DNA of 64,000 nucleotides, taken from contig NZ_JACVMU010000004.1 of NCBI RefSeq assembly GCF_014529985.1, positions 62,001-126,000 on the forward strand, given 5' to 3'. Below the pieces are notes generated by a model. That model did not search any database. It was not told the DNA's origin and was given only the letters and a program-made list of their open reading frames with translations. Positions 21,678 through 52,278 of the stretch are shown piece by piece. This stretch comes from Leucobacter sp. cx-42. Its GTDB lineage: Bacteria > Actinomycetota > Actinomycetes > Actinomycetales > Microbacteriaceae. A program made the position numbers and the translations under genes. Numbering within the stretch: the stretch's first letter is position 1; each line of letters begins with the position of its first letter.

Positions 21678-21771
21678 CAACCCCGCGAGATCGACCCTTT
21701 CTCTCGAGATCATGAGTTTCTACGCCTAGAAACTATGGTTTTCGGCAGAAAGCGTCGATCTCGCGGGGTTG
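21678..21771 (+). repeat. dispersed palindromic repeat, copy A
   Basis: Its ends form a perfect 18-bp inverted repeat (CAACCCCGCGAGATCGAC at 21678-21695 and the complement at 21754-21771). Inside lies a 7-bp hairpin AGTTTCT/AGAAACT and the shared CGGCAGAAA word. It is about 80 bases downstream of the epsilon-subunit gene. It is the copy with the longest end symmetry and lacks the GGGG-TTTC main stem of the others. Confidence 0.7.
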
Positions 21772-21980
21772 ACTCGTTTCTGGGCGGCGGCGCCCACACC
21801 TGCGCCATGGTCTTGTGATGTATTGGCTGGCCGGTGCCAGCAGCGCCAGCAGCACGTGGCACAGTTCTCGGCTCATCCCACGTCAGGCCTTGCGGGGCCG
21901 AGTATCCCAGCGAATACGCTCTGAACAATTTCTGCAGAAATTGTCATGCAGTCTGAAGAGTGCGAGCGCGGGAGGTTCCG

Positions 21981-22241
21981 ATGTGGCTCACCAAGAAGGT
22001 CACGCAGGTCAGCATTGTTGTCGCCCTCATCGCGGTATTCCTCGCAATGGTGTGCGTTGCGCTCGCTGCGGTGCACTACGTCATTGCACTGCGCTCCGGA
22101 GACAATCGCGGCCTCCCTGTGACGCTTGCGATCGGGTTGTACGGCAGCGCGACAGTCGTCTGCGTCAGTAGCGCGCTCGCGACATTTGCGGGCACGCTCT
22201 ACTTGCTCGCGAAACGACGCATTCGGCAACAGCTCAAGTAG
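21981..22241 (+). CDS. small hypothetical membrane protein
   Basis: The 86-residue protein has two hydrophobic helices (VSIVVALIAVFLAMVCVALAAV and VTLAIGLYGSATVVCVSSALA) joined by a short polar loop, and a basic C-terminus (KRRIRQQLK). Both ends are probably cytoplasmic. The ATG is supported by GGGAGG 5 bases upstream. I recognise no family. It lies between the repeat region and the convergent sigma-factor operon, with 15 bases to its neighbour. Confidence 0.65.
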   Translation: MWLTKKVTQVSIVVALIAVFLAMVCVALAAVHYVIALRSGDNRGLPVTLAIGLYGSATVVCVSSALATFAGTLYLLAKRRIRQQLK

Positions 22242-22256
22242 GGCCGAGTATCGAAG

Positions 22257-23126
22257 CTACTCTGCTGTCGCCAAAACCCCGGGGTCGTCATCATCGATCG
22301 CCCAGAAATCAAGACCCGCAAGCGTGGTGCCGTCTTTGAGGTGCAGGTCGTAGGTCATGTCCTGCTCTGTGCCGAAGACCTCTTCGTATTCCTCCGCTCC
22401 CGTTTCGGGAACGAGGTAGTTGCCGTTCTCGTCGAGCTCTCCCTGTGGCCACCACAACAGGTAGTTCCCGTTCGCTACGGTCGCAGTAACTGCAAGATCA
22501 CCAACGTGCAGGGTGACTCCGGCCACATTTGCTCCGACGCCGCCACCCGTCATGGCATTTGGTCCGTCGGGTCCCTCACTGCCAAACATGGCTTCGCTCA
22601 AAAGCTCATCGGGTTCCGGGGTGTACTCAGGCGCTGTCCCGTCACGCCCGCTCCAGCCGTTGAGCAGAACTTCGGAGGTCTTCGATCCTGGTACTAAGGC
22701 GACGAGACAGCTCCCGTAACCTCCCACCTCATTGTTCCCGTCGAACAATATCGCCACAGCATTTCCACGTCGCTCTGACGCCAGCACACGTGTGGTTGCA
22801 ACTGTCATGGGAACCTGTGACAGGCTTTCCTCTCCGCTGCACGCAGCCACCGCAACGGCCAGATCCGCGTCTGAAACTGCCGAAGGCTCGGCCGTCCACT
22901 GCGCGTTTATCTCAACCACCGAATCATTTCGAAGGATGACCACAGCGGCGATCCCGACGAGCATCGCTGCTGCGACGATGCCGCCAACCGCCCAAAAGAC
23001 GCGGCGGCGAATCAGCTGTCTCCGCGTCGGCAGGGCATCGGGAGGGGTCTCCGCATCGAGGAGCTTGTTCGACCCCGGCGCTGTCTGGCCAGCATCGGCA
23101 TTGTGGCGATACATTTCAAGGTTCAT
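22257..23126 (-). CDS. membrane-anchored protein, paralogue 2 of a sigma-linked pair
   Basis: The 289-residue protein has a cytoplasmic N-terminus with an Arg-rich stop (RRQLIRRRVF), one transmembrane helix (about residues 47-67) and an extracytoplasmic domain. It shares with the upstream gene the segments SERRG, CLVALVPG, VGDLAVTATVANGNYLLWWP and HLKDGTTLAG, so the two are tandem paralogues. The topology recalls anti-sigma factors, but no zinc-binding motif is present. An AAAGGTGGAG ribosome-binding site precedes the ATG. Function is unknown. Confidence 0.7.
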   Translation of the reverse strand: MNLEMYRHNADAGQTAPGSNKLLDAETPPDALPTRRQLIRRRVFWAVGGIVAAAMLVGIAAVVILRNDSVVEINAQWTAEPSAVSDADLAVAVAACSGEESLSQVPMTVATTRVLASERRGNAVAILFDGNNEVGGYGSCLVALVPGSKTSEVLLNGWSGRDGTAPEYTPEPDELLSEAMFGSEGPDGPNAMTGGGVGANVAGVTLHVGDLAVTATVANGNYLLWWPQGELDENGNYLVPETGAEEYEEVFGTEQDMTYDLHLKDGTTLAGLDFWAIDDDDPGVLATAE

Positions 23127-23215
23127 TGCGGCTCCACCTTTGCAGTTCCTTCCAGGCTACCCACGAACGTGACCGTAGTTGCGCAAGATGCGAGTGGATG
23201 TCACTCACCAAGCAC

Positions 23216-24058
23216 TCACTCACCCGTTGGGCTGCTCCATTCCTCCGCCTCCTCGGGTGACAGGGGTTGTACCCCAGTTTTCGTCGTCCCGTCCGTGAGC
23301 GTGAGGTCGAAGGTGATCTGCCCGAAGGGGTGCGGAGACGAGAACAAGCGAAGGTCCGATGTTGGCCACCATGCGGCATAACGGCCGTCTGCAACCGTCG
23401 CTTGCACGGCGGTGTCGCCGAAGCGCACAGTGACGGCCGAGACATCCGGCCCAACTGCGCCCGATGCGATCGATGCTTTGCCTCCTGCAAGATCCAGATC
23501 CCACACGACTCCACCGACCATGTTCCCCGGAGGTGAGGCAGGTGCCGCGCTATCGCCGAGTTCCGCGCCACCTGTAGCCGCAAGCACCCGGCTCGCACCG
23601 GGCGGCAATTCGACCAGGCAGGTAAGTACTGTCTCTGGATCCGCGCCCCACAACGTCAGGCCGATGAGATCACCACGCCGCTCCGACAGCACAGTGGTTG
23701 GGCTCTTGGGGATCTCCAGGTCGAACTCGGCGAGCGTCGCGCGGCAGGCCTCCCGTGCTACGTCGAGTTCGATGGGGGTGACGGGCTCGGTGGTTGCGGT
23801 CCAGGTCGCGATTGCGGGCACCTTGGCGGATCCTTGCTGCGGCAACACCAGCATCGCCACCGCTGCGCACGCGCCTAACGCAACGACCACGCCGACGCGC
23901 ATCGTGAGACCCGCTCGCGGTCGCTCGCGCAGGCGCTGGCGGCGCTTTGGCGGCGCACTTACGATCTCCTCGAGTAGCCGATCCGCCGCCGCTCGCTGGC
24001 GAACGTCAGGATGGGTCGCCGCAGCATCAAGCGCGCGGATCTTGTCATCAATATTCAT
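23216..24058 (-). CDS. membrane-anchored protein, paralogue 1, putative anti-sigma partner
   Basis: Residues 1-50 are cytoplasmic and charged (MNIDDKIRALDAAATHPDV), a single helix spans about residues 52-72, and the rest is outside. The outer domain resembles the next gene: SERRG, CLVELPPG, FGDTAVQATVADGRYAAWWP and LTLTDGTTKTG. Its ATG overlaps the stop of the sigma gene by 4 bases, the typical coupling of a sigma factor to its regulator. That coupling and the topology suggest an anti-sigma role, but the sequence shows no known anti-sigma domain. Confidence 0.72.
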   Translation of the reverse strand: MNIDDKIRALDAAATHPDVRQRAAADRLLEEIVSAPPKRRQRLRERPRAGLTMRVGVVVALGACAAVAMLVLPQQGSAKVPAIATWTATTEPVTPIELDVAREACRATLAEFDLEIPKSPTTVLSERRGDLIGLTLWGADPETVLTCLVELPPGASRVLAATGGAELGDSAAPASPPGNMVGGVVWDLDLAGGKASIASGAVGPDVSAVTVRFGDTAVQATVADGRYAAWWPTSDLRLFSSPHPFGQITFDLTLTDGTTKTGVQPLSPEEAEEWSSPTGE

Positions 24059-24636
24059 CGTGCCTCCTGCGCCGCGGCTTTTGGGGTTGATGGGGTGGTC
24101 GAGCCAGTGTCAGTGTCAGTGTCGGCGAGCAGCGTTCTGAGCGCGGATCGGGCGCGCGAGAGGCGCACTCGGTAGGTTCCAGGTCTGATGCCCAGTGCGG
24201 CTGCAGCGGATTCCGCGTCGAGTTGCTCGAAGATCGCGAGCGCGAGCACCTCTTGTTGCGCGTCGGAGAGCTGTTTCCATGCGGCAGAAAGATCCGCCAG
24301 AAGCTCGACTATTTGTAACTCGGTGTCCATCGCGGGTTCGGCGCGATCTGCGTGCGTGGCAAGGTGCACGGCAAGTGCTCGACGTCGCGCGGTACCACGG
24401 CGCTCGTTCAGGAGCGTGTTGCGCACGATTCCGAAGACCCAAGCGCGACGCGCATCACTGGTCTCTGGGGCACGGTCGAAGCGACGCCACGCGACCGTCA
24501 TCGCAGTTGCGACGGCTTCTTCGGCGTCGGTGGGTTCAGCTCGTCGCAGAGCAAATCGCAACGCATCATCGTAGACGTCGGCAAAGAGACGTCGGTACGC
24601 GCGCTCGCGATCTTGAGTATGGGCCATATCTTTCAC
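24055..24636 (-). CDS. ECF-type RNA polymerase sigma factor
   Basis: Region 2 is visible at residues 15-60 (FADVYDDALRFALRRA followed by DAEEAVATAMTVAWRR), and region 4 near residues 115-165 (LSDAQQEVLALAIFEQLDAE, then a helix-turn-helix with ALGIRPGTYRVRLSRARS). The size of about 190 residues fits the extracytoplasmic-function class. The start is uncertain between this GTG and an ATG three codons on. The C-terminal tail is rich in Thr, Asp and Ser. It heads a three-gene operon with two membrane-anchored paralogues and would redirect RNA polymerase in response to an envelope signal. Confidence 0.85.
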   Translation of the reverse strand: MKDMAHTQDRERAYRRLFADVYDDALRFALRRAEPTDAEEAVATAMTVAWRRFDRAPETSDARRAWVFGIVRNTLLNERRGTARRRALAVHLATHADRAEPAMDTELQIVELLADLSAAWKQLSDAQQEVLALAIFEQLDAESAAAALGIRPGTYRVRLSRARSALRTLLADTDTDTGSTTPSTPKAAAQEAR

Positions 24637-24691
24637 ATGTCCGGCTAGAGGCTGGTCGTTACAGCTCCGGCTCAGAATACATTCGCAGGGT

Positions 24692-24697
24692 TAAGCT
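24692..24697 (+). promoter_or_regulatory. -10 box for leaderless Nudix gene
   Basis: TAAGCT is followed after 6 bases by the ATG of the Nudix hydrolase, without a ribosome-binding site. Confidence 0.45.
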
Positions 24698-24703
24698 TTC
24701 GAT

Positions 24704-25399
24704 ATGTCACTCACTCCCGATGTTGCGCGCGCACGCGAAGAACTGAGCGCGCTCCTTGAGCGAGGCATGGACCTGCGGATCACTCCGCAAGCGCCACCGA
24801 ACGACCGGCCGTACCGGCATTCTTCCGTGTTGATCTTGTTTGGCGCGCTTGACCGAAAGCCGAGTTTGCGAGCAGACTCGTCACCGGTTTCACGTGATCT
24901 TGACGTGCTGCTCATGCGGCGCTCGTCACAGCTGCGGCATCACGCTGGAGAGATTTCGTTCCCGGGCGGCGGTGCCGAAGCTCACGATCCCGACGCAGTC
25001 GCGACCGCGTTACGTGAGGCGAACGAAGAAACTGGACTCGACCCTGCTGGGGTCGAGGTGCTCGGCACGCTTCCCGAGGTGGCCATCCCGGTGAGCAACA
25101 ATCTTGTGACCCCTGTTGTCGGCTGGTGGTGCGCACCAAGCGAGGTACGTGCCGACGAGAGCGAATCAGTGGAGGTTTTCCGTGTGCCGGTCGCTGACAT
25201 GCTCGATCCCGCATCACGCGGAACCTCCGTGCTCCGCCGCGGCGGCCTCTCGCACCGTGGCCCGGCATTCCAGCTGACCCCAAAGTTGGGGCGTCACATC
25301 GTGTGGGGGTTCACCGGAATTCTCCTCTCGTCGATGTACGACGAATTAGGTTGGACCCAGCCCTGGGATCGGAAGCACGAGTTTCCGCTCAGCAAGTAG
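24704..25399 (+). CDS. Nudix hydrolase, CoA diphosphatase type
   Basis: The Nudix box is intact from about residue 87 (GGGAEAHDPDAVATALREAN followed by EETGLD). Directly upstream the sequence LLMRRSSQLRHHAGEISFPG matches the signature of the CoA-pyrophosphatase group (NudL/PCD1). Such enzymes split CoA or its oxidised forms into phosphopantetheine and 3',5'-ADP. The 231-residue length is normal. The gene is divergent from the sigma-factor operon and convergent to dgt, with 56 bases between. Confidence 0.88.
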   Translation: MSLTPDVARAREELSALLERGMDLRITPQAPPNDRPYRHSSVLILFGALDRKPSLRADSSPVSRDLDVLLMRRSSQLRHHAGEISFPGGGAEAHDPDAVATALREANEETGLDPAGVEVLGTLPEVAIPVSNNLVTPVVGWWCAPSEVRADESESVEVFRVPVADMLDPASRGTSVLRRGGLSHRGPAFQLTPKLGRHIVWGFTGILLSSMYDELGWTQPWDRKHEFPLSK

Positions 25400-25455
25400 C
25401 CCTCACGCGCCACCCGGGTATCGGCCGATCGAGCGTTGGTCAGTTGGGCCCCGCG

Positions 25456-27048: not shown

Positions 27049-27054
27049 GTCCTC

Positions 27055-27060
27055 AGAATA
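27055..27060 (-). promoter_or_regulatory. -10 box for leaderless dgt
   Basis: On the minus strand TATTCT precedes the ATG by 6 bases. The intervening GAGGAC is too close to the start to act as a ribosome-binding site. Confidence 0.45.
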
Positions 27061-27117
27061 TGACACCCGCTTACAAAAGGGTTCGGCAAAATCGGTCGCG
27101 GGCGTGAAGATGAGAGT

Positions 27118-29747: not shown

Positions 29748-29769
29748 CGTTTTCCCGCTCCTTCGGGCT

Positions 29770-29863
29770 CAACCCCTCGAAAGGCCCTGTTTCACCCGAA
29801 ACAGGGCCTTTCTTGCGCCAGAAAGGGGTGTTTTCGACAGAAAACCCCATTTTCGACGGGTTG
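29770..29863 (+). repeat. dispersed palindromic repeat, copy B
   Basis: It begins CAACCCCTCGAAA and ends TTTCGACGGGTTG, an inverted pair with one mismatch. Inside are two hairpins: a 14-bp stem AAAGGCCCTGTTTC with its complement, and GTTTTC/GAAAAC flanked by GGGG and CCC. The word CTTGCGCCAGAAA (29812-29824) recurs in copy F at the same place. It follows the sulfhydrylase gene and precedes the AbiEi-type gene by 100 bases. Confidence 0.75.
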
Positions 29864-29901
29864 AGGGAGCGACTGGCGAAGTCGAATCGGGGCCGCGAAG
29901 C

Positions 29902-29910
29902 TTATCCACA
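29902..29910 (+). other. single perfect DnaA-box-like sequence
   Basis: TTATCCACA matches the consensus DnaA box exactly. It is isolated, between repeat B and the promoter of the AbiEi-type gene, so it may be fortuitous or a regulatory DnaA site and not an origin. Confidence 0.35.
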
Positions 29911-29927
29911 AGCGTCGATTTCGCTCC

Positions 29928-29956
29928 TTGTTCGTCTGCCTCCAGCGCACCAAACT
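29928..29956 (+). promoter_or_regulatory. promoter of the AbiEi-type gene (leaderless)
   Basis: TTGTTC and CAAACT are spaced by exactly 17 bases, and the ATG follows the -10 after 6 bases. No ribosome-binding site is present. Confidence 0.5.
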
Positions 29957-29962
29957 CGTGGC

Positions 29963-30976: not shown

Positions 30977-30998
30977 GGTGCGGCGTCCCAAACACGGC

Positions 30999-31085
30999 GA
31001 AAGGGGCCGTTTCTCTCGAAACGACCCCTTTCACACCGCAGAAACTATCGATCTCGGCAACAAGTACCAATCTCGAGGGGTTGAG
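30999..31085 (+). repeat. dispersed palindromic repeat, copy C
   Basis: The 15-bp stem GAAAGGGGCCGTTTC with its near complement (one mismatch, loop TCTC, 30999-31032) is followed by CGCAGAAAC, GATCTCGGCA and TCTCGAGGGGTTGAG. It lies between the AbiEi-type gene and the convergent murB gene and can terminate both. Confidence 0.75.
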
Positions 31086-31107
31086 CGATGCGCTCGAGAT
31101 TGAGCGA

Positions 31108-33145: not shown

Positions 33146-33151
33146 TCGTTC

Positions 33152-33157
33152 AGTCTA
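33152..33157 (-). promoter_or_regulatory. -10 box of the hadAB-murB operon (leaderless)
   Basis: On the minus strand TAGACT is followed after 6 bases by the GTG start. No ribosome-binding site is present. Confidence 0.5.
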
Positions 33158-35097: not shown

Positions 35098-35193
35098 CAA
35101 CCCCGCACAAACAGGTGCTTCTCCCGAAAAGGGGTCTTTCATACGTGTGAAAGACCCCTTTTCGTGTGTAAGAGGCCCTTTCGAGGGGTTGAG
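35098..35193 (+). repeat. dispersed palindromic repeat, copy D
   Basis: CAACCCCGC and GAGGGGTTGAG mark the ends. The core is a perfect 17-bp stem, CGAAAAGGGGTCTTTCA (35125-35141) and complement (35148-35164), loop TACGTG. The inner 18 bases CTTTCATACGTGTGAAAG recur with two changes in copy E. It lies 32 bases after the carboxylase stop codon and so doubles as a terminator. Confidence 0.8.
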
Positions 35194-39777: not shown

Positions 39778-42537
39778 GTGACGAACACAACACCCGAGTC
39801 TGCTCTAGAACGAGATCCCGGAATGCCCACCAGCACGTGGCGCTTGCGCAGCGATGCATGGGAATACCTGCGATTTGTCGTGAAGCGGCTCGCCCTTGGT
39901 ACCGATGAGTCCCGTGACATCATGGCCGATCCTGAGATCACGCGGTCGCTTCGAGCACTGCGTACCATCGAGATGTACTGGGCCGGTTTTGGTCAGCGCT
40001 ATGTCCAGAACGTGGCCGACCTCATCGAGGAGGGCAAGTACGAACTCGCTCTCGACCGCATTGGGCGTGTGGTGCACCGTCTGCGTGGCTCGTCCGAGCA
40101 CGGTGAACCGCGCGAGGACATCACCGATGATCCCGAGCTCGCTGAGCAGTTGCATATGGACGCGGATCCGCGCCAGCGCTTCGAGGTACTCATCGTCGAC
40201 GAGACCACCGAGGCTGACCGGGACGCGACCCGTGCCGAGGCACTCGCGCACCGCAGTGCGGCTGATGACTTCATCTACGAGTACGTGATCGTGCCGAGCG
40301 CGGATGACGCGGTCGCCGCCATCCTCACCAACCCGAACATTCTGGCGTGCGTGATCCGCCCCGGTTTCAGTCAGCGCACGCGACAGAAACTCAGCCGCGA
40401 TCTCACCGCAACCATTGAGCTGGCCAAATCGCAGACGTCGACCCATGCATCGGCGCCCTCTCCGAAGAGCCCGCTGTCGTCCGTGCAGCGCGTGGTTGAG
40501 CTCGCAGACACCCTCATTGAGATCCGCCCCGAACTCGACCTGTATCTCGTTGCCGGCGCACACATTGAGGATCTCGCTGGTGCGCTCACTCGCCGGTTCC
40601 GTCGTGTCTTCCGTCGCGACGACCAGATCGAACTGCACCTGTCGCTCGTCCGCCGCATCTCGCACCTGTACGACACCCCCTTCTTCTCGGCGATTCAAGA
40701 TCACGCACGACGCCCGGTCGGTGTGTTCCATGCCCTCCCGGTCGCACGCGGCGGATCAGTCCTCTCGTCACAGTGGGTCAAAGATCTCGCCGACTTCTAC
40801 GGCGTGAACCTACTCCTCGCAGAGACTTCGGCAACCTCGGGCGGTCTTGACTCACTGCTCGCGCCTGTCGGCCCGCTGAAGAAGGCACAGGACCTTGCCG
40901 CCCGCGCGTACGGTGCGAAGCGTTCCTATTTCGTCACCAACGGCACCTCGACCGCGAACAAGATCGTGCACCAGGGGCTTGTTGCCCCCGGCGACGTCGT
41001 GCTCGTCGACCGCAACTGCCACAAGTCGCACCACCACGCGATGATGCTCACCGGCGGTCGCCCCGCGTACCTCGAGGCGTACCCCCTCGATGACTTCGCG
41101 TTCTACGGCGCTGTGCCCATCAGTAGCGTGAAGCAGCTCCTGCTCGACTACCGCGCAGCTGGCCGCCTCGATGAGGTGCGCATGCTCACGCTCACGAACT
41201 GCACGTTCGACGGCCTCGTCTACGACCCCGTCCGCGTCATGTCAGAGTGCCTCGCGATCAAGCCGGACCTGGTGTTCCTCTGGGACGAGGCGTGGTTCGC
41301 GTTTGGCGGCTTCCACCCTGTTACCCGGCGCCGCACCGCAATGTTCGCCGCGAAGCACCTCGAAGACACGCTTCGCACCAACGCACACCGTGAGGCGTAC
41401 GAAGCGCAGCAGGCCGTGCTCTGGAACGAGGACGGCACTCCCGCTGCCGACGACGTCTGGCTGGCCGAACGACTGGTGCCGGCGCCTGATGCGCGGATCC
41501 GCGTCTACGCAACGCAGTCCACACACAAGACGCTCACCTCGTTGCGCCAGGGTTCGATGATTCACGTCTACGACCAGGATTGGGAGCGCGACGCGAAGGA
41601 CCCCTTCGACGAGGCGTACATGACGCACACCTCGACGTCGCCGAACTACCAGATCCTGTCGACGCTCGACATCGGCCGCCGCCAGGTCGAGCTCGAGGGG
41701 TACAAGCTCGTACAGCAGCAGCTCGACCTCGCGACGAGCCTCGCGCAGGCGATCGCGCGGCACCCGCTGCTGCGCCGCACCTACCGTGTGCTCACCGCGA
41801 AGGAACTCATTCCCGCAGGCGTCGGTGGCGCAAGCGGTGCTGCCCGCACGGGTCGCCCCATGCCGCTGCGCGATGGCCTCTCAGAGATGTGGAAGGCGTG
41901 GGAGAACGACGAGTTCGTCGTCGAGCCCTCACGCGTGACCGTTGAGATCAGCCGCACCGGCGTTGACGGCGACACGTTCAAGCACGATTACCTCATGGAC
42001 CGCTACGGAATCCAGGTGAACAAGACGAGCCGCAACACGGTGCTGTTCATGACGAACATCGGCACGTCGCGCAGTGACGTCGCCTACCTCATCGAGGTGC
42101 TCGTGAAGCTTGCCGAGAAGTTTGAGGAGAAGCAGGCGCAGGGTGATCCTGAGGTGGCATTGGTCGAGGCTGGTGAGTCGGCCGCGCCCGAATACCCGGC
42201 ACTGCCCGACTTCACGTCGTTCTCGCCGGCGTTCGCGCCGTCGCCCGTCACGACACCCGTGCTCCCTGATGGCGCGCTGCGTGAGGCGTACTACTCGGGA
42301 CAGCGCCGCGGCGGCGTCGAGTTTGTCCAGCCAGAAGAGCTGATTGCCCGCCTCGCGCGCGGTGAGCAGCCCGTCTCGGCGAACTTCGTCACGCCCTACC
42401 CGCCCGGGTTCCCCGTGCTTGTGCCCGGCCAGGTGTTCTCGAAGGAGATCATCGACTTCATGTCTGCGCTCGATACCCGCGAGATTCACGGCTACGACGC
42501 ACGACGCGGATACCGAGTACTCACTCCCAAGGGCTAA
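39778..42537 (+). CDS. Orn/Lys/Arg decarboxylase, large form
   Basis: This 919-residue fold-type I PLP decarboxylase releases CO2 from ornithine, lysine or arginine to make a di- or polyamine. Residues 1-270 form the N-terminal and wing part. The PLP core contains YFVTNGTSTANKIVHQ, DRNCHKSHHH, LVFLWDEAWFAF and the Schiff-base Lys584 in QSTHKTLTSLRQGSMIH. The C-terminal domain follows. The size is larger than E. coli SpeC or CadA (about 710-750 residues) because of the long N-terminal region. The GTG start is supported by GGGAGAG 9 bases upstream. Which amino acid is used cannot be read from the sequence. It opens a region rich in amine genes. Confidence 0.9.
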   Translation: MTNTTPESALERDPGMPTSTWRLRSDAWEYLRFVVKRLALGTDESRDIMADPEITRSLRALRTIEMYWAGFGQRYVQNVADLIEEGKYELALDRIGRVVHRLRGSSEHGEPREDITDDPELAEQLHMDADPRQRFEVLIVDETTEADRDATRAEALAHRSAADDFIYEYVIVPSADDAVAAILTNPNILACVIRPGFSQRTRQKLSRDLTATIELAKSQTSTHASAPSPKSPLSSVQRVVELADTLIEIRPELDLYLVAGAHIEDLAGALTRRFRRVFRRDDQIELHLSLVRRISHLYDTPFFSAIQDHARRPVGVFHALPVARGGSVLSSQWVKDLADFYGVNLLLAETSATSGGLDSLLAPVGPLKKAQDLAARAYGAKRSYFVTNGTSTANKIVHQGLVAPGDVVLVDRNCHKSHHHAMMLTGGRPAYLEAYPLDDFAFYGAVPISSVKQLLLDYRAAGRLDEVRMLTLTNCTFDGLVYDPVRVMSECLAIKPDLVFLWDEAWFAFGGFHPVTRRRTAMFAAKHLEDTLRTNAHREAYEAQQAVLWNEDGTPAADDVWLAERLVPAPDARIRVYATQSTHKTLTSLRQGSMIHVYDQDWERDAKDPFDEAYMTHTSTSPNYQILSTLDIGRRQVELEGYKLVQQQLDLATSLAQAIARHPLLRRTYRVLTAKELIPAGVGGASGAARTGRPMPLRDGLSEMWKAWENDEFVVEPSRVTVEISRTGVDGDTFKHDYLMDRYGIQVNKTSRNTVLFMTNIGTSRSDVAYLIEVLVKLAEKFEEKQAQGDPEVALVEAGESAAPEYPALPDFTSFSPAFAPSPVTTPVLPDGALREAYYSGQRRGGVEFVQPEELIARLARGEQPVSANFVTPYPPGFPVLVPGQVFSKEIIDFMSALDTREIHGYDARRGYRVLTPKG

Positions 42538-42540
42538 CCC

Positions 42541-42620
42541 GCCGAAAAGGGGTGTTTCTCCCGAAACTTGGGCTTTCATACGCATGAAAGTACCCATCTC
42601 GAGAGCAACACCCCTTTTCG
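42541..42620 (+). repeat. dispersed palindromic repeat, copy E
   Basis: The outer stem CGAAAAGGGGTGTT (42543-42556) pairs exactly with AACACCCCTTTTCG (42607-42620). The inner hairpin CTTTCAT/ATGAAAG lies in CTTTCATACGCATGAAAG (42573-42590), close to copy D. It begins directly after the decarboxylase stop codon. Confidence 0.8.
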
Positions 42621-42703
42621 CTGCCCTGGAGGCAGAACCAGGCAGCCCAGCGCCAACACAGCGCCAACACCACGCAACTCTGGCGCTTCCAAGGCAACCC
42701 TCC

Positions 42704-42709
42704 TAGGCT
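42704..42709 (+). promoter_or_regulatory. -10 box for leaderless nucleoside phosphorylase gene
   Basis: TAGGCT is followed after 6 bases by the ATG, with no ribosome-binding site. A TGGCGC at 42681-42686 is at the right distance for a weak -35. Confidence 0.5.
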
Positions 42710-42715
42710 GAATTC

Positions 42716-43519: not shown

Positions 43520-43570
43520 GCATGACCCGGGCGCACCGATCCGCGCCTGTGAACGCAGCCCACACGGCAC

Positions 43571-43609
43571 AGGGCCCGGCCACACGCGCGATGCGTGGGA
43601 CCGGGCCCT
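43571..43609. terminator. bidirectional terminator
   Basis: AGGGCCCGG and CCGGGCCCT form a perfect 9-bp stem, extended by a less regular inner stem. It lies between the convergent phosphorylase and transporter ATPase genes. Confidence 0.75.
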
Positions 43610-43662
43610 TCCAGTTGCCGGTGCGGTGACCAATACCGCGGCCGGCTGCAACATCGGCCGGC

Positions 43663-44853
43663 TTAGGTCGCCGACTCGCCAGCCTCGCCGGTGTCGACGA
43701 GCAGAACGCCCGACTTCACAGCCCAGAGCATGGTTGCGGTCTGGCCGCGCTCGAACGCGCGTGCCTCGTGGCTCAGACGCACCGCACCCTCGGTGCCATC
43801 AGGCAGCTCGACGGTGTAGCGACGCGATGAGCCGAGGTAGGTGACATCCGTGATCGTGACGGGGATGGCGTTCCAGCCCTCGGTCGCCACGGTACCTGCT
43901 GCCTCAAGGCGCAGATTTTCGGGGCGGATCAGGATAGCGAGATCCTCGTGCGCACTGCGGCCCTCAGCAACGACGCGGTGGCCCGCGACGGTGATCGCGG
44001 TGTGCTGATCGCCAGCTGCCTCGCCCGTGCCGAGCAAGACGGTCGACTCACCAAGGAAGCGACCAACGAAGAGCGTGCGAGGGGTCTCGTACAGCTCTTC
44101 CGAGGTGCCGACCTGCTCGATCTTGCCGTTATTGAAGACCGCGATGCGGTCAGACATCGAGAGGGCTTCTTCCTGATCGTGCGTCACGTAGACGAACGTC
44201 GAGCCGACCTCGCGGTGGATGCGCTTGATCTCAGCCTGCAGCCACTCGCGCAGCTTCTTGTCGAGTGCACCGAGGGGCTCATCCATAAGGAGCACGCGGG
44301 GTTCGTAGACAAGTGCGCGAGCGAGTGCCACACGCTGCTGCTGACCGCCGGAGAGCTCCGAGGGGAAGCGATCACCGAAGTCACCGAGTCGCACCATACC
44401 GAGCGCTTCAGCGACCTTGGTCTTCTGATCCGCCTTCGACATCTTACGGCGCTGCAGCGGGTATGCGACGTTCTCTGCGACAGTCTTGTGCGGGAACAGT
44501 GCGTAGTTCTGGAACACCATGCCGATGTCGCGCTTGTGCGCTGGCAGCTTCGCAACCGGCTTGCCGTAGATGTGCAGCATGCCCTCGGTGACCGAGGTGA
44601 AGCCAGCAATCATGTTGAGCGTCGTGGTCTTGCCCGAGCCCGAGGGGCCCAGGAAGGTCATGAACTCACCGGGCTCGATGACGAGATCGATGTCATCGAC
44701 GACGGTGTTCTCGCCGTACTTTTTGGTGACCTGGTTCAGGCTGATGCCTGCCTCATTGATCGCCGAGATGGTGCTGGTGTTCAGGCCCTCGTTGCGGAGT
44801 TCCTGCTCGTGACCTGCGGGGACGGGGATGTCGTTGTGAGTCATCGCGTTCAC
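43663..44853 (-). CDS. polyamine-type ABC transporter ATP-binding protein (PotA-like), system 1
   Basis: Walker A is GPSGSGKTT at residue 69, the signature LSGGQQQR, Walker B LLMDEPLGALD and the H-loop THDQEEAL. A regulatory TOBE domain of about 110 residues follows, with GRFLGESTVLLGTG and DVTYLGSSRRYTVEL. That layout is that of CUT1/PotA ATPases. It energises import of putrescine/spermidine-like substrates with the permease and binding-protein genes upstream in the same operon. The GTG start overlaps the permease stop by 4 bases. Confidence 0.9.
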   Translation of the reverse strand: MNAMTHNDIPVPAGHEQELRNEGLNTSTISAINEAGISLNQVTKKYGENTVVDDIDLVIEPGEFMTFLGPSGSGKTTTLNMIAGFTSVTEGMLHIYGKPVAKLPAHKRDIGMVFQNYALFPHKTVAENVAYPLQRRKMSKADQKTKVAEALGMVRLGDFGDRFPSELSGGQQQRVALARALVYEPRVLLMDEPLGALDKKLREWLQAEIKRIHREVGSTFVYVTHDQEEALSMSDRIAVFNNGKIEQVGTSEELYETPRTLFVGRFLGESTVLLGTGEAAGDQHTAITVAGHRVVAEGRSAHEDLAILIRPENLRLEAAGTVATEGWNAIPVTITDVTYLGSSRRYTVELPDGTEGAVRLSHEARAFERGQTATMLWAVKSGVLLVDTGEAGESAT

Positions 44854-45635
44854 GCTGCTACTCGCTTTCTTTTTCGCGTCGCGAACTGTGCCGACAGCAT
44901 GACGACGACGGATACCACCATCGTGAGCACTGCTACGGCTGCCACAGTCGGATCATTGGTCTGCGTCACGCTGTTGTAGATCTTCACCGGCAGCGTCTGC
45001 AGTGACGGCGACTGGATGAAGAGCGACAGAATGACTTCGTCGAACGAGGTGACGAAGGCGAACAGTGCGCCTGCGGTCACACCCGGTGCGATGAGCGGGA
45101 GGGTGATGGAGAAGAACGTCCGCATACGGCCCGCGCCGAGGCTGGCCGAGGCCTGCTCAAGGCGAGTATCGAAGCCAGCCAGCGACGCCATCACGTTGGT
45201 GATGACGAGCGGCATGGCCACGATGGTGTGTGCGAGAACGAAGCCGGGCAGGGTGCCGAGCAGGTTCATGCGCAGGAAGAGCGAGTACAGGCCGACCGCG
45301 AGGACGATGCCGGGGACAATCATCGGGAGCAGGAAGTAGCCCTCGACGAGGCTCTTACCGCGGAACTTCACCTTCGAGAGGCCGAGCGATGCCAGCACAC
45401 CGACCGTCGTTGCAACGATCGTGGTGAGGATTGCCACCTGCAGCGATGACCCGAGGGCCTTCATCCAGGACGCATCGGTGAAGAAGTTCTCGTACCACCG
45501 GGTCGAGAAGCCCTTCGGCGGGAAGTTGAATGAGGGAGCCTCGTTGAACGACATCGGAACGATGACGAGCGTGGGCAGCACCAACCAAATGATGATGATG
45601 ATGGCGAAGACGCCAAGGAGACGTTTCGTGGTCAC
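44850..45635 (-). CDS. polyamine-type ABC transporter permease (PotC-like), system 1
   Basis: The 261-residue protein has six helices and the EAA loop QASASLGAGRMRTFFSITLP that docks on the ATPase. SPSLQTLPVKIYNSVTQ near the C-terminus is typical of PotC. It overlaps both neighbouring genes of the operon by 4 bases. Confidence 0.9.
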   Translation of the reverse strand: MTTKRLLGVFAIIIIIWLVLPTLVIVPMSFNEAPSFNFPPKGFSTRWYENFFTDASWMKALGSSLQVAILTTIVATTVGVLASLGLSKVKFRGKSLVEGYFLLPMIVPGIVLAVGLYSLFLRMNLLGTLPGFVLAHTIVAMPLVITNVMASLAGFDTRLEQASASLGAGRMRTFFSITLPLIAPGVTAGALFAFVTSFDEVILSLFIQSPSLQTLPVKIYNSVTQTNDPTVAAVAVLTMVVSVVVMLSAQFATRKRKRVAA

Positions 45636-46555
45636 TTCTTATCCACCCCCGGGAAGAGGCTCTGGCCCTTGTTCAGCTTCGACACGATGACGAGGATGAG
45701 GATCGTACAGATCAGCAAGAACATGCCGAGTGCCGTTCCTTGGCCCCACATGAGGAAGACCGAGATCTGCTGCTGGATCAGTGCGGAGATCATGATCTCC
45801 TTCGACGAACCGAGCAGGGCGGGGATGATGTAGAAGCCGAGGCCGAGAATGAAGACGGTCACGCCGCCGGCGAAGATGCCGGGACGCGAGAGCGGCAGGT
45901 AGACGGTGAAGAACGCGGTGACCGGGTTCGCACCGAGGTTCGATGCTGCGGGCAGCAGTCGCTTGTCGATCTTGGCCATCGCTGAGTACAGCGGCAGCAC
46001 CATGAACGGCAGGAGCACCTGTGACATACCGAGCGCGACACCAAAGGTGGTGCGGATCAGGGGCACGGGGCCAATCCCGAACCACGCCATGAGGATGCCG
46101 TTGATGGGACCGGTGTCCTGGAGCAGTACCATCCACGCGAGCGTACGCACGAGGATCGAGGTCCAGAGCGGCAGCATGATGAACAGCTGCAGCAGGTTTC
46201 GGGTGCGGTCGGAGACGACCGTCATGAGGTACGCGTACGGGTACGCGAGGAGCAGACACACGATCGTGACGATGAACGCCGTACCGAAGGTGCGCGTGAC
46301 AACAGCGATGTTCGCCTGGGTGGTGAACAGCCACTTGTAGTTCTGCAAGCCCAGCTCAGGATCAGTCACCGAACGTAGGGCGACGTCGAACAGTGGCGCC
46401 AGGAAGAACAGGGAGACAATCGCGAATGCCGGGAGCAGGAGAAGAAGCGGGCGCCAGTTGCGTGGCCCCCGCTTCTTCCCAGCGCCGGCACCCGCACCAG
46501 AAACAGCCAACGCCTCAGTGACGGTGGTGTTTCCAGGAGCAGAATGACCGGACAT
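45632..46555 (-). CDS. polyamine-type ABC transporter permease (PotB-like), system 1
   Basis: The 307-residue protein starts with a flexible Gly/Ala segment, then six helices beginning RPLLLLLPAFAIVSLFFL. The EAA loop is ASNLGANPVTAFFTVYLPLS. PotB subunits of this family are usually encoded before PotC, as here. The gene lies 5 bases after the binding-protein gene. Confidence 0.9.
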   Translation of the reverse strand: MSGHSAPGNTTVTEALAVSGAGAGAGKKRGPRNWRPLLLLLPAFAIVSLFFLAPLFDVALRSVTDPELGLQNYKWLFTTQANIAVVTRTFGTAFIVTIVCLLLAYPYAYLMTVVSDRTRNLLQLFIMLPLWTSILVRTLAWMVLLQDTGPINGILMAWFGIGPVPLIRTTFGVALGMSQVLLPFMVLPLYSAMAKIDKRLLPAASNLGANPVTAFFTVYLPLSRPGIFAGGVTVFILGLGFYIIPALLGSSKEIMISALIQQQISVFLMWGQGTALGMFLLICTILILVIVSKLNKGQSLFPGVDKK

Positions 46556-46560
46556 GATGA

Positions 46561-47685: not shown

Positions 47686-47881
47686 TTGAGATGGTCCTCT
47701 CACTTCACTGTGATTGGTACCGGGGCGCGCTTACAGGTAAAGCATCGTTACTTCCCCTGCTTGAACCGAACCTCTACAAGCAATCAGCTCGTCGCCCTCG
47801 GATGAACATTGAAGCTACACGGCATTTTCACCGATGCTCACTTGTGTTACGTGTTCGTTACCGCTCTCGAGATATCTCATA

Positions 47882-48008
47882 CATTCGTACACGTACGGTC
47901 TTATGAGCGGTACGAATGGGAGGTGCGAGGCGAAACAAATGTGCGTAATTTTCCAAATACTGGCGCAACGTCGCGTAGTGTCATTGCCAAGCTTGCGCCG
48001 TACGAATG
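47882..48008. promoter_or_regulatory. three GTACGAATG sites in the divergent promoter region
   Basis: CATTCGTAC (47882-47890) is the exact inverse of GTACGAATG at 47920-47928, with a 29-base spacer, and a third copy lies at 48000-48008. The region between the transporter operon and the amine oxidase is unusually AT-rich. It spans 383 bases (47686-48068) and holds no gene. The sites look like operators of a regulator shared by both directions, for example the PucR-type protein encoded downstream. Confidence 0.6.
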
Positions 48009-48068
48009 TAAATCGCACTCGCAAACATCTACTTCGGTAGGAAACAACAGAGCAAGGAGGCTCTACCC

Positions 48069-49301
48069 GTGAACATCATCGTGATTGGTGCCGGTCTTTC
48101 CGGTCTCACCTCGGCTTGGGAACTGCACAAAGCAGGCCATGAGGTCACTGTGCTCGAGGCTCGCGACCGCGTTGGCGGCCGTACCTGGAGCACCACACTC
48201 GACAACGGGGTCATCACTGAGCGTGGTGGCGAGTACGTATTCCCCACCGAGTTCGCGATTCGCAAGCTGGCAGCCGAGGTGGGGGTTCCCCTGCTGACGC
48301 ACGGTGTGCGGTACGGTCGCCGAACCACCAACGGCCACGTCATCTCGTTTGATGATCTTGAGCGCACGAGCGCGCAGGTACAGGCAACGCTCAAGGGCAT
48401 GATGGACGACGGTGAGCGCAATGTTTCGCTCGCAACCGCGTTCGAGACTGCCCTTGGCGCCGATTACCTGCAGGATCCCGTGTACCGCCGTACCGTCACT
48501 TCGAGCGCTGCTGACCCCACGCGCGTGAGCGCGGAAGCTGTCATTCTGCACGAGTCTTCCACCGTCAATGGTTATGTAGAGGACGGCGCCCGCTTCCTGC
48601 GCGGCAACCAGTCACTCTCCATCGAACTTGCACGGCGCCTCGGTGACCGCGTACGTCTCGAGCACCCGGTGGCGCGGATCGACCAGTCCGCGACCGGCGT
48701 CCAGGTCGAGCTGCAGGACGGCACCCGCCTCGAAGCTGACGGGGCGATCCTCTCGGTTCCGTTCCCCATTCTGCGCGAGCTGGAGCTCGGCTTCGATCTT
48801 CCCGAGGCACAGCAGCGCGCGCTCGACCACCGGTTCATGGGCGTCGCTGCCAAGCTGGGCGTCCCGCTGAACCGCGTCGATAACGACATTGCACTGCAGA
48901 ACACGAACCACACGTGGTGGTCGTGGCGTTCGATGTCGGTTGACGGCGAGCATCGCATCAATGCGCTGTCGAGCTTCGCTGGCGGCCCGGATGCGCTCGC
49001 TGCGCTGCAGGTCACCGAGGGTTCCGCCACCTGGCAGGCCGAGCTGCAGAAGATGCGTCCCGAGCTTGAGCTTGCTGGCGATGTCTTGCTCACCACCTGG
49101 GCAGATGATCCCTGGGCGCGCGGATCGTACACCGCTCCCGCCCTCGATTGGGAGGCGGCAGACGCCACCGCGTTCGAGACCTCGGCAGGCCGCGTTGCAA
49201 TCGCTGGCGAGCACACCGGTCTCGCCCAGTCGCTTTCTGGCGCGGTCGCGTCAGGTTACCGCGCGGTTGCCGCACTCACGCAGGCGCTCTCGGCAGGGTA
49301 A
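48069..49301 (+). CDS. flavin monoamine oxidase-family protein 1
   Basis: The N-terminal Rossmann motif NIIVIGAGLSGLTSAWELHK is followed by the second FAD signature EARDRVGGRTWS. The C-terminal FAD segment is VAIAGEHTGLAQSLSGAVAS. These are features of the MAO/polyamine oxidase family, which oxidise amines to imines with release of H2O2. The 410-residue length is normal. The GTG start has an AGGAGG ribosome-binding site 8 bases upstream. The PucR-type gene begins 9 bases after its stop, so the two are co-transcribed. Confidence 0.88.
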   Translation: MNIIVIGAGLSGLTSAWELHKAGHEVTVLEARDRVGGRTWSTTLDNGVITERGGEYVFPTEFAIRKLAAEVGVPLLTHGVRYGRRTTNGHVISFDDLERTSAQVQATLKGMMDDGERNVSLATAFETALGADYLQDPVYRRTVTSSAADPTRVSAEAVILHESSTVNGYVEDGARFLRGNQSLSIELARRLGDRVRLEHPVARIDQSATGVQVELQDGTRLEADGAILSVPFPILRELELGFDLPEAQQRALDHRFMGVAAKLGVPLNRVDNDIALQNTNHTWWSWRSMSVDGEHRINALSSFAGGPDALAALQVTEGSATWQAELQKMRPELELAGDVLLTTWADDPWARGSYTAPALDWEAADATAFETSAGRVAIAGEHTGLAQSLSGAVASGYRAVAALTQALSAG

Positions 49302-49310
49302 TACGCACAC

Positions 49311-50738
49311 ATGACACTCACTGTTGGCGAGTTGATCGCGCTTCCTTCTGTGAAGACGTGGTCGCTCACCCCTGGCGTTGGCGAGCATCGCAAGATCTCG
49401 TGGGCCCACTCGTGTGAACAGCCTGACCCTTGGCTGTGGCTCGGTGAGGGATCTCTCGTGATGACCACGGGCCTCGGTGTGCCGGTGTCTGTGGCGGATC
49501 AGTGCACCTACTTTGCTGGGATGCACAAGGCCGGCATTGCCGCGGTCACGATCGGTGCTCACATGTCGGCCCCTCCGCTTGCGGAGGAGGCTCTCGCATA
49601 TGCGTCTTCACTCGGCTTGCCCGTACTTGAAACCGCATATGAGGTGCCCTTCCTCACGCTCGCTACCGCCGTCATTGAGGCGGCACAAGAGCAGCGAGCT
49701 CGTCGTGTGCGCCTCACAGAGCGGATGTATGCCGCGCTGCGTACACACGCGACGGAAGAGGATTCTGAGCCCTTGCTTGCCGAACTCAGCGCACTGCTCG
49801 GTGGCACGTTCGCCATCGAGCCAGCGCTGCCTGGCGGCGCCAGAGGCAGCATTGAAGAGGTCGAGCCTGGCCGGTTCACCACGTCACTCGTCGCACCAGG
49901 CGATCCCGTGCTGAGCTTCAAGGTCGTCACGGAGGAGCCCGACTATGGGCTCCTCCAGCACTCCGCGGGCATCGTCGGCACCGCACTGTCAATCTCGGCG
50001 GCTTCCCGCCGCCGAGATTGGCTGTACGGCTCAATTCTGCTCGGCAACCTCGCTGACGGCACGATGCCAGCGGGATTTGCCCGCGGGCTACTCGAGTCAC
50101 ACGGCCTGTCTGGATCGCTCCGCTTCTGCGTGTGGGCGTACACCGACAGTCGTGAGTCACTCGATGCCGTCCAGGCGGTCGCCGCTGCTGAAGGATCCGC
50201 CGCAATCGCCACAGTGAAAGACCACCAGACGATCGCACTGATCCGCGCCGATGACTCGGCCCTGCTCGAGAGGTTCGGCGAGCAGTTCAAGGTCGTGGGT
50301 GCGAGTGCACCGTTCACCGACCTGCTCGGGTTCCAGACTGCGATGCGGCAGGCGAGTGTGACGCTCACGCGCGCCCGAACGGCCGATCAAACCGGTGCAA
50401 TTCGGTTTGATGATGCCGAGCCATCGTCGTTGTTCCTCCCGAGTGATGGCGATCAGTTGCGCGCTATCACCCAGCAGGTACTCGGCCCACTCCAGGAGTA
50501 TGACGCCCAGCGCGGCACCGACCTTATGGAAACGCTCCGTGTGTTCCTTGAGGACAACCGCAGTTGGGTGCGTGCATCCGAGCGCCTGTTCATTCACCGA
50601 CAGACACTCGTTTCGCGGATCGCGCGCATCGAAAGCGTGCTCGGAAAGGACCTCGGAAAGATGCAGGATGCGTCTGACTGTTGGCTCGCCATCCGTGCGG
50701 CTGTGCGCTGCGGCGCCCTCGAACCAGAGGACACATAG
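49311..50738 (+). CDS. PucR-family transcriptional regulator
   Basis: The N-terminal half has the PucR sensor-like domain (LTVGELIALPSVKTWSLTPG, DPWLWLGEGSLVMTTG). The C-terminal HTH_30 domain is LMETLRVFLEDNRSWVRASE, then LFIHRQTLVSRIARIESVLG. Such regulators usually activate purine, amino acid or amine catabolism. The location between two amine oxidase genes suggests that it senses an amine or its aldehyde product. Direct targets may be the flanking genes and the transporter operon at 43.7-47.7 kb. Confidence 0.85.
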   Translation: MTLTVGELIALPSVKTWSLTPGVGEHRKISWAHSCEQPDPWLWLGEGSLVMTTGLGVPVSVADQCTYFAGMHKAGIAAVTIGAHMSAPPLAEEALAYASSLGLPVLETAYEVPFLTLATAVIEAAQEQRARRVRLTERMYAALRTHATEEDSEPLLAELSALLGGTFAIEPALPGGARGSIEEVEPGRFTTSLVAPGDPVLSFKVVTEEPDYGLLQHSAGIVGTALSISAASRRRDWLYGSILLGNLADGTMPAGFARGLLESHGLSGSLRFCVWAYTDSRESLDAVQAVAAAEGSAAIATVKDHQTIALIRADDSALLERFGEQFKVVGASAPFTDLLGFQTAMRQASVTLTRARTADQTGAIRFDDAEPSSLFLPSDGDQLRAITQQVLGPLQEYDAQRGTDLMETLRVFLEDNRSWVRASERLFIHRQTLVSRIARIESVLGKDLGKMQDASDCWLAIRAAVRCGALEPEDT

Positions 50739-50850
50739 GCCGCGTACAAACGTATGAACGCCATCCCGGCTCCGCTGCCACTTCGGCGCAGTCATTACGT
50801 TTCACCTCCGTACTTTTTGTAATGTCAATTTTTCGATCACAGAGGATCTC

Positions 50851-52173
50851 ATGACCACCACCACTCCCGACGTCAACGCCGACGTCGACGTCGTAGTTAT
50901 CGGCGCTGGCTTCGCTGGCCTCGTCGCCGCCCGCGAACTCAGCCAGGCAGGGCACGACGTGCTCCTCATCGAGGCGCGTGACCGTATCGGCGGCCGCACC
51001 TGGACTGATGATCGTCTCGGCCACCCGCTCGAAATGGGCGCGAACTGGGTGCACTGGGTGCAGCCGCACGTGTGGGCTGAAATGTCGCGCTACGGCCGCG
51101 AGATGATTCGCAGTCCCAAGGCCGACGAAGCGTATTGGCATGACGCCGACGGCACCCCTGTCAAGGGCACGCTTGAAGAGTTCATGGCGCTCATCAGCCC
51201 GGGCCAGCAGCTCCTCATCGACGACGTCCGCTCGGTCATGCCACGTGGCCCAGAGCCCACGGTCGGCGAGATCCAGGCGCTCGACAGTGTCTCCATCGAG
51301 GAACGCATGGGTCAGCTCGGCCTCGACCCCGCAGCGTATGCGGCCAACGCCTCGGTCTGGACCGGCCACGTCAACGCTCCCCTCTCAGAGGTCGGCCTCT
51401 CAAGCGCGATGCGCTGGGTATCAGCAACCGGCGGTCACTGGGAACTCATGCACGAAGCATCGGCAACCTACCGCGTGGTGGACGGCATGCGCGCATTCAC
51501 TGCCGAGATCGCGAAGGACATCAGCGGCGAGATCCGCCTGAACACCACCGTCGCAGCCGTCTCGCAGGGCGACGCTGGCGCCGTCGTCACCACGACCGAT
51601 GGGGCGCGGATCGCTGCTCGCCGCGTCATCAGCACCCTGCCCGTCAACGCGATCGCAGGCATCGACTTCACGCCAGCCCTCCCCGCTGCGTGGCAGCGTC
51701 AGAACGCGGAGCGCGTTGCCTCGCGCGGTACCAAGGTGTGGCTGCGAGCTGAGGGCCACGTTCCCCGTTTCTTCGCCTACGCGAGCCCGACCGACCCGCT
51801 GTCGGTGCTGAAGGCAGAGTTCTACTGCAATGATGAGCGCGGCGACTACACGATTCTTGTTGGCTTCGGGGCGGATCATTCCAAGATCAACCTCGAAGAC
51901 CTCGCTGACGTGCAGGCCGCGGTCGACCTCTTCCGCCCAGGTCTCGAGATCACCGAGGTGGAGGCGCACGATTGGATGACTGATCCGCTCTCGCAGACCA
52001 CCTGGATGACGCACCGCCCCGGCCAGCTCACCCGCGACCTCGCGGAGCTGCAGGAACCGCAGGGTGTGCTCCACTTCGCGTCGACCGACAACGCCAACCT
52101 CTGGGGTGGCTTCATCGATGGCGCGATCGAGAGCGGGCTCCGCGAGGCGCGTCGCGTCGCTGCCGCGCTGTAG
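50851..52173 (+). CDS. flavin monoamine oxidase-family protein 2 (putrescine-oxidase-like)
   Basis: FAD motifs VVVIGAGFAGLVAARELSQA and EARDRIGGRTW are at the N-terminus and HFASTDNANLWGGFIDGAIE at the C-terminus, where most MAO relatives have G-E. The protein is 440 residues and resembles bacterial putrescine/tyramine oxidases of actinobacteria. GAGG 5 bases before the ATG serves as ribosome-binding site. A separate promoter is likely, since 112 AT-rich bases separate it from the PucR gene. Repeat copy F follows. Confidence 0.88.
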   Translation: MTTTTPDVNADVDVVVIGAGFAGLVAARELSQAGHDVLLIEARDRIGGRTWTDDRLGHPLEMGANWVHWVQPHVWAEMSRYGREMIRSPKADEAYWHDADGTPVKGTLEEFMALISPGQQLLIDDVRSVMPRGPEPTVGEIQALDSVSIEERMGQLGLDPAAYAANASVWTGHVNAPLSEVGLSSAMRWVSATGGHWELMHEASATYRVVDGMRAFTAEIAKDISGEIRLNTTVAAVSQGDAGAVVTTTDGARIAARRVISTLPVNAIAGIDFTPALPAAWQRQNAERVASRGTKVWLRAEGHVPRFFAYASPTDPLSVLKAEFYCNDERGDYTILVGFGADHSKINLEDLADVQAAVDLFRPGLEITEVEAHDWMTDPLSQTTWMTHRPGQLTRDLAELQEPQGVLHFASTDNANLWGGFIDGAIESGLREARRVAAAL

Positions 52174-52191
52174 CCGCAGTTCCCCAAACAC

Positions 52192-52278
52192 GCGAAAAGG
52201 GGTGTTTCTCTCGAAACACCCCTTTTCTTGCGCCAGAAACGCATGATCTCGGCAGAAACGCCCCATCTCGTGGGGATG
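52192..52278 (+). repeat. dispersed palindromic repeat, copy F
   Basis: A perfect 15-bp stem, GAAAAGGGGTGTTTC (52194-52208) with its complement (52213-52227) and loop TCTC, is followed by CTTGCGCCAGAAA, GATCTCGGCAGAAA and ATCTCGTGGGGATG. The stem follows the amine oxidase stop by 20 bases and precedes the convergent amidohydrolase. Confidence 0.8.

Follow-up and report, generated by a model that had tools for sequence, protein, structure and literature searches.

A family of four-word palindromes at gene ends in Leucobacter sp. cx-42, possibly inherited binding arrays

The stretch of DNA analysed here (the window) comprises 64,000 nucleotides (nt) of Leucobacter sp. cx-42 (contig NZ_JACVMU010000004.1, positions 62,001 to 126,000 of the forward strand) and carries six palindromic elements, A to F, each of which lies downstream of the stop codon of a plus-strand gene (Table 1). 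An initial annotation had picked out all six, and every one is confirmed in the sequence; its boundaries are exact for A and B, whereas those of C, D, E and F shift by 2–9 nt at one or both ends. The elements share a common register of 13-7-12-7-16-7-12-7-13, that is 94 nt, in which conserved blocks close to CAACCCCGCGARA, TTTCTNNCGARA, TTTC-N8-GAAA, TYTCGNNAGAAA and TYTCGCGGGGTTG are separated by four variable slots of 7 nt, and conservation extends 2 nt beyond the element on both sides. Each element contains four CGARA words in the order direct, direct, inverted, inverted, held at fixed distances around the slots. Both core types distinguished previously represent variant forms of the central 16 nt. 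That annotation did not recognise the fixed arrangement of four units, the variability of the slots, the number of copies or the order-wide spread. The stop codon within element E is created by an edge base T instead of C, and a copy at position 92882 of contig C18 (G000:C18:92882) appears to do likewise.

Table 1 Coordinates of the elements, their parts and other features (window positions unless a contig is given)
Feature	Position	Strand	Remarks
Element A	21678..21771	.	tandem gap, 82 nt past stop codon; four 7-nt slots
Element A, word 1	21686..21690	+	CGAGA, direct; read from sequence
Element A, word 2	21705..21709	+	CGAGA, direct, 19 nt past word 1; read from sequence
Element A, word 3	21740..21744	-	TTTCG, inverted; read from sequence
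Element A, word 4	21759..21763	-	TCTCG, inverted; read from sequence
Element B	29770..29863	.	tandem gap, 22 nt past stop codon; slot 1 pairs with slot 2
Element C	30990..31083	.	convergent gap; stop codons at 13 and 24 nt
Element D	35098..35191	.	tandem gap, 31 nt past stop codon; slots 2 and 3 pair
Element E	42535..42628	.	first three bases TAA (42535-42537) form the upstream gene's stop codon
Element F	52185..52278	.	convergent gap; stop codons at 11 and 14 nt; slots 1 and 2 pair
Element F, slot 1	52198..52204	.	AGGGGTG, variable
Element F, slot 2	52217..52223	.	CACCCCT, variable
Element F, central 16 nt	52224..52239	.	inner 8 nt are the sole part of the palindrome clearly covarying across copies
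Element F, slot 3	52240..52246	.	CGCATGA, variable
Element F, slot 4	52259..52265	.	CGCCCCA, variable
Truncated halves	G000:C12:164962, C15:295, C10:108851		two left, one right
FMN riboswitch	2940-3086	+	Rfam match
tRNA gene	17152-17224	-	Rfam match

The word GAAAAGGGGTGTTTC, allowing at most one mismatch, has 17 matches in the genome (two arms per element may both match) and its reversed form has none, so the family is not a product of chance. A sequence-only model built from 16 copies and run against the whole genome (G000; 2,773,878 bases in 20 contigs) finds at least 150 matches, taken as the best 150 of 792 candidates, with E values of 6e-23 to 3e-12; these fall at 78 places, mostly on both strands. 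A scanner was then applied to 963,624 bases of this genome, made up of DNA fetched around the matches, contigs C17 and C20, most of C18 and the window. It finds at least 80 elements with scores of 26 and above, against a maximum of 11.7 in mononucleotide-shuffled DNA (one shuffle per stretch); nine rows scoring 12 to 25, some of them decayed or truncated copies, were excluded from the counts. The six elements of the window are thus members of a larger family. Exactly 94 nt with all four slots of 7 nt is the form of 73 of the 80 elements, and each of the other seven has one slot of 8 or 6 nt. Because 19 of the 20 elements on C17, C20 and C18 were already among the profile matches, the genome total may lie near 80 to 90. 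The elements are nearly always complete. A strict two-unit pattern gives 82 matches in the scanned DNA, all within elements and none outside, and a looser scan for halves finds three truncated ones outside the 80 elements, against 71 left and 75 right halves inside them. A weaker right-end remnant of an element is seen on C20. On C8, before the element at 91791 (locus L001), three tandem units of about 25–28 nt resemble GCGAAAAGTTTCTTACGCTCAGCCT; this tandem unit looks like one that lost its slot and was then duplicated.

The spacing of the words is rigid. When two CGARA words followed by two inverted ones were searched for at any equal side spacing of 5–30 and any centre of 5–60, 49 of 50 matches in the scanned DNA fell at 14/30/14, and so did 47 of 48 in a sister genome of the same genus, G067. 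Two further genomes show spacings of their own, G462 with 4 of 4 at 14/20/14 and the more distantly related Leucobacter G016 with 2 of 4 at 13/31/13, and reversed words give no match in any of the DNA sets. The choice of DNA around elements leaves this single spacing unexplained. The words are conserved by identity and not by pairing, since the R of CGARA varies independently of its partner Y (paired 0.53 against 0.54 expected, and 0.45 against 0.50) and mutual information in the outer arms stays close to that of the null (highest z 2.9); by contrast, strong covariation across copies is seen in the central 8 nt (z 9.9 to 14.1). Of the compensatory changes sought in the initial annotation, the central 8 nt provide examples across copies and sister species differ by a few such pairs, but clear covariation is absent from the outer arms.

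The slots behave differently from the words. The 292 slots of 73 copies hold 197 distinct words, compared with 253 when the columns are shuffled independently, and neighbouring slot positions are interdependent; the most frequent words, TCGACCG and AGGGGTG, occur seven times each. Slots pair beyond chance in only part of the copies: pairing at 6 or more of 7 positions is seen in 3 of the 73 copies for slots 1 and 2 (0.6 expected), 7 for slots 2 and 3 (4.9), 6 for slots 3 and 4 (3.5), 4 for slots 1 and 3 (4.2) and 2 for slots 2 and 4 (4.3). Between sister species, the slots offer single compensatory examples, at about the level of slid versions for most slot pairs. An excess of G-U over A-C in the slots seemed strong on a first count, but a permutation control traced it mostly to base composition.

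Positions relative to genes were obtained with a gene caller of our own, which placed 78 of the 80 elements: convergent gaps contain 47 of them, tandem gaps 28 and divergent gaps 3, and none lies inside a gene. Background gaps of at least 100 nt in the same DNA number 78 convergent, 152 tandem and 103 divergent. The 75 copies in convergent or tandem gaps lie at a median of 41 nt past the stop codon, and 26 of the 28 tandem copies are closer to the upstream stop; several convergent gaps hold two elements, one by each stop. Consistently, the 64 elements scanned in G067 are divided into 34 convergent, 23 tandem and 7 divergent, against 70, 158 and 84 gaps. Under rough gene calls, G016 has 8 convergent, 4 tandem and 2 divergent copies (14 of 15, one differently shaped copy being excluded), G462 has 8 of 9 copies in convergent gaps, and 38 loci of other genomes comprise 18 convergent, 15 tandem and 2 divergent ones and 3 within a called gene. 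That the palindromes form one family, dispersed over the 3' ends of genes, is thus strongly supported.

Most comparable elements also occupy the same place in the sister genome. Over 527 kb of alignments, the DNA of G067 is 91.7% identical to that of the present genome. The family is abundant there, with at least 78 matches to the model and the 64 scanned elements in 784,515 fetched bases. A comparable site in G067 is available for 46 of the 80 elements, the other 34 falling outside the comparable fetched DNA, and the element is present at 45 of these 46. Over 43 gap-free ortholog pairs (2 of the 45 were dropped for length), divergence is 7.4% in the conserved framework, 12.8% in the slots and 24% in aligned columns of the 40-nt flanks on each side; element A differs from its ortholog at 1 of 94 positions. 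The family is under clear purifying selection. In the reverse comparison, 45 of 53 comparable G067 copies are paired and 8 have no partner here, 11 of the 64 being not comparable. Four of the eight sites were aligned: at one, the final 10 nt are all that is left of the element, which resembles a deletion scar; a second has a degenerate copy scoring under the cut, a third another hairpin of the CGAAA..TTTCG type, and the fourth is ambiguous. The contigs bearing dnaA, C20 here (7 elements in 89 kb) and C6 in G067 (21 in 340 kb fetched), are among the densest.

Beyond this pair of genomes, whose closest named protein matches are from Leucobacter massiliensis (87%) and L. luti (84%) on the side of strain cx-42, the sequence-only model has matches in 7 of 54 genomes of the genus, the present one counted. 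A second model of the framework pairs, for which the best 10 candidates per genome were scored, extends the family to at least 28 of 398 genomes and at least 13 of 85 genera of Microbacteriaceae, and to at least 17 of 396 genomes of the order. At least 11 of the latter lie outside Microbacteriaceae, in four other families; elements could be read in three of these, and the fourth, with one genome, is assigned by score alone. Eight genomes picked for having matches contain 6 to 46 each, both strands counted. Among 39 elements of relatives, 32 have clear words (the other 7 were dropped for weak words), spaced 14/20/14 in 19, 14/19/14 in 5, 14/30/14 in 4 and otherwise in 4. In these 32 elements the 6 nt that follow CGARA are alike in the two direct units (4.06 of 6 positions against 2.27 after shuffling, z 9.5), and comparing these 6 nt across all four units of an element gives 4.06–4.50 shared positions of 6, where different elements share about 2.3 (z 9.5–11.2). 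G016 and G462 each have a consensus of their own; relatives keep the layout with lineage-specific words. A rigid four-word layout is thus found in at least four families of the order, with a fifth by score, in which the words change and the spacing hardly does.

Some observations on individual relatives stand beside these results. Five of the 15 copies of G016 have no homologous neighbour in the fetched DNA of the present genome, about two correspond in place, a further copy follows the same gene but differs in shape, and the remaining copies are non-matching or ambiguous. On contig C1 of G016 (3.38 Mb), at least 20 places with E of 0.01 or less (best 150 of 1283 candidates) are all confined to 0.23–2.25 Mb, with dnaA located at 2.01 Mb; about 1.37 Mb has no listed match, a pattern noticed after the fact. 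The gene before element D is a candidate biotin-dependent carboxylase gene, which we take it to be from the peptide LEAMKMEQ. Directly past its homologue in Microbacterium algeriense (L207), in the position of element D, stands a near-perfect palindrome with CGAGACCCCG words, and CGARA is absent from the 230 nt past its homologues in two named Leucobacter relatives (L187, L188).

The initial annotation had also proposed that the elements may work as terminators, and their relation to ordinary terminators was analysed. A hairpin with a T-tract, on either strand, is present inside only 16 of the 80 elements, and a T-tract terminator was accordingly rejected as their general rule. Ordinary hairpins occur in 9 of 38 convergent gaps with an element and 14 of 35 without (p 0.21), and in 8 of 27 and 26 of 120 tandem gaps, respectively (p 0.45), so that a clear replacement of ordinary terminators was rejected as well. 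T-tract terminators outside the element are found at 10 of 59 convergent gene ends with an element and 13 of 57 without, and at 4 of 23 and 17 of 102 tandem ones. Because hairpin frequencies do not differ significantly and T-tract terminators are about equally frequent, the elements do not simply replace terminators.

The elements could be inherited binding arrays for a putative factor, which would probably act on DNA and insulate gene ends in both directions; this is a tentative reading. They are probably a working gene-end marker read by a putative protein rather than stray mobile DNA. The words are repeated, conserved by identity and fixed in spacing, as a binding array demands, and these features, together with the repetition of direct words in relatives and the near-completeness of the units, suggest recognition by a factor. 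The sharing of 6 nt between direct units favours an array because a hairpin does not need it. The two direct and two inverted words of each array would serve as short recognition sites, which a putative sequence-specific factor would most likely occupy on duplex DNA in the form of two dimers. The gene-end position combined with the palindromic symmetry suggests a two-way action on transcription: because the array is palindromic, it would act alike from either side, which would suit convergent genes. The bound array would probably halt or slow RNA polymerase arriving from either direction, either by forming a protein roadblock or, to equal effect, by anchoring gyrase or a nucleoid protein. We infer the factor, its DNA binding and the roadblock action from the sequence. 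A broader proposal, which is rather unlikely, is that many bacteria of the order possess a general gene-end system, in which a putative factor on four-word palindromes would stop polymerase both ways, factor and words would change together by lineage at nearly fixed spacing (about 14/20/14 or 14/30/14), and the slots would have been freed in the Leucobacter lineage to which the window belongs.

Several points weigh against a DNA-binding array. No binding protein for the words was found, and no candidate emerged. The shared-word argument depends on elements of relatives that were retrieved with a CGARA-favouring model, the spacing fit favoured sides of 14 and centres of 19, 20, 30 and 31, and the DNA searched was chosen around matches, which inflates densities. 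The centres of relatives' elements, at about 20 or 30 nt, are near one helical turn apart; this argument is weak, because the 19 nt between direct words make 1.8 turns and one Leucobacter has 13/31/13. Slots within elements of the present genome share no common word (slot 1 against 2, z -0.9), and copies do turn over, as the unpaired sister copies and truncated halves attest. Slots 1 and 4 pair at 6 or more of 7 positions in 15 of 73 copies, against 5.5 expected. The mean folding energy is -45.2, compared with -42.0 when the slots are permuted (z -4.9 here, -6.1 in the sister), with 22% and 30% of the copies in the two genomes below z -1.5. Finally, A-C mismatches of the slots on the transcribed strand are reduced in 26 tandem copies (20 against 29.7 +- 3.7 permuted), which points to action as RNA.

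Such an action is the strong rival to a DNA-binding array, and a possible one: at the 3' end of the mRNA the element would form a long interrupted hairpin, usable in either direction, that either terminates transcription without a T-tract or blocks 3'-to-5' exonucleases after a Rho-dependent ending. The closeness of 75 copies to a stop codon, the folds more stable than slot-permuted versions, the covarying central tip and the mismatches reduced on the transcript strand all agree with it. So does the comparison of nested framework pairs between sister species, in which compensation accounts for 5 of 19 double changes, whereas the two slid versions have none among 9 and 12, and one site of a G067 element holds the simple CGAAA..TTTCG hairpin in the present genome. 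However, the outer arms lack clear covariation, and the words do not avoid A-C (G-U 16 and A-C 13 over the 34 tandem copies from the two genomes), nor is the strand preference of wobble pairs in the tip significant (G-U 11, A-C 7). Ordinary hairpins and T-tract terminators beside elements are not significantly rarer, although convergent hairpins are somewhat so, and identical words in direct orientation are unnecessary for a hairpin. A folded DNA, namely a cruciform or single-strand hairpin as the active form, for instance to relieve supercoils between convergent genes, is very improbable. The central 8 nt do covary strongly with no significant strand preference, as the start of extrusion needs, and convergent gaps accumulate positive supercoils; yet the outer arms do not clearly covary, and the many unpaired slots would hinder extrusion.

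It is improbable that the elements are relics of a small mobile element, of the miniature inverted-repeat transposable element (MITE) or REPIN type, that spread within each lineage and is tolerated behind genes. The family is dispersed and palindromic, reaches high copy in the present genome and one sister but matches the other searched genomes of the genus rarely and weakly, has a separate consensus in G016 and G462, and spares called genes in the present genome; eight of the 53 comparable sister copies have no partner and three halves are truncated. Nevertheless, no target-site duplication was detected in 1008 comparisons, the best of which (z 2.8) is at chance level. No Y1 transposase (RAYT, PF01797) is found in the present genome or in any of the 54 genus genomes, a control giving matches in 5 of 14 named genomes and other transposase families lying outside this search. 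Nearly all comparable sites are occupied in the sister, the one clear readable absence has the appearance of a deletion scar, and conservation of the words far exceeds that of the flanks. Mobility was thus not detected by any of these comparisons.

Among known systems, roadblock terminators work through a bound protein, such as yeast Reb1, and a factor stopping polymerase at bacterial gene ends would work alike; here, however, four sites are contained in one palindrome and the factor is only putative. If the proposal for the order were true, the general gene-end system would be a bacterial counterpart of roadblock terminators. Bidirectional intrinsic terminators, which Ju and colleagues reportedly described in 2019, are likewise palindromic, active on both strands and placed at convergent gene ends, whereas a T-tract hairpin is found in a minority of the present elements, their letters are conserved beyond pairing and they form a high-copy family. 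ERIC, RUP and BOX are intergenic imperfect palindromes of about 100 nt; they are not known to share a sequence with the four-word family, in which the spacing and the word pattern are constant and the slots variable. Composite BIME and REPIN elements also contain units paired in inverted orientation at gene ends, whereas here a single four-unit element is nearly always complete, with no RAYT and no mobility detected.

Gene-end palindromes are known mainly as repetitive extragenic palindromes (REPs), many of them tied to a transposase, and the initial annotation had called the present family REP-like. According to PMC3733652, REPs lie chiefly past coding regions, where the neighbouring genes are convergent or unidirectional, and in this gene-end location the dispersed palindromes studied here resemble its GTAG and CGTC superfamilies. 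The REP definition fails on transposase, tag, size and solitary halves: REPs are 20–40 nt, whereas the present elements span 94 nt with four words at fixed spacing, have no RAYT (the transposase that goes with GTAG REPs) and leave only three truncated halves beside 80 full copies, and no tag is consistent (GTAG or CTAC lies within 16 nt of an edge in 7 of the 80 elements, CGTC or GACG in 15). REP membership was therefore rejected, and what remains is a gene-end family with no Y1 transposase and under purifying selection. If a factor binds the arrays, they would be a candidate general gene-end system in high-GC actinobacteria. Searches of the open-licence PubMed Central (PMC) literature, subscription journals lying outside this scope, listed no description of the four-word family, and word look-ups in PMC2267715 and PMC4060949 gave none either.

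At gathering scores, Rfam has no match to the elements in the window and reports only the riboswitch and the tRNA gene of Table 1. The window also contains two paralogous gene clusters on the minus strand, at 44041-46080 and 57305-59285, which are about 70–75% identical in stretches.

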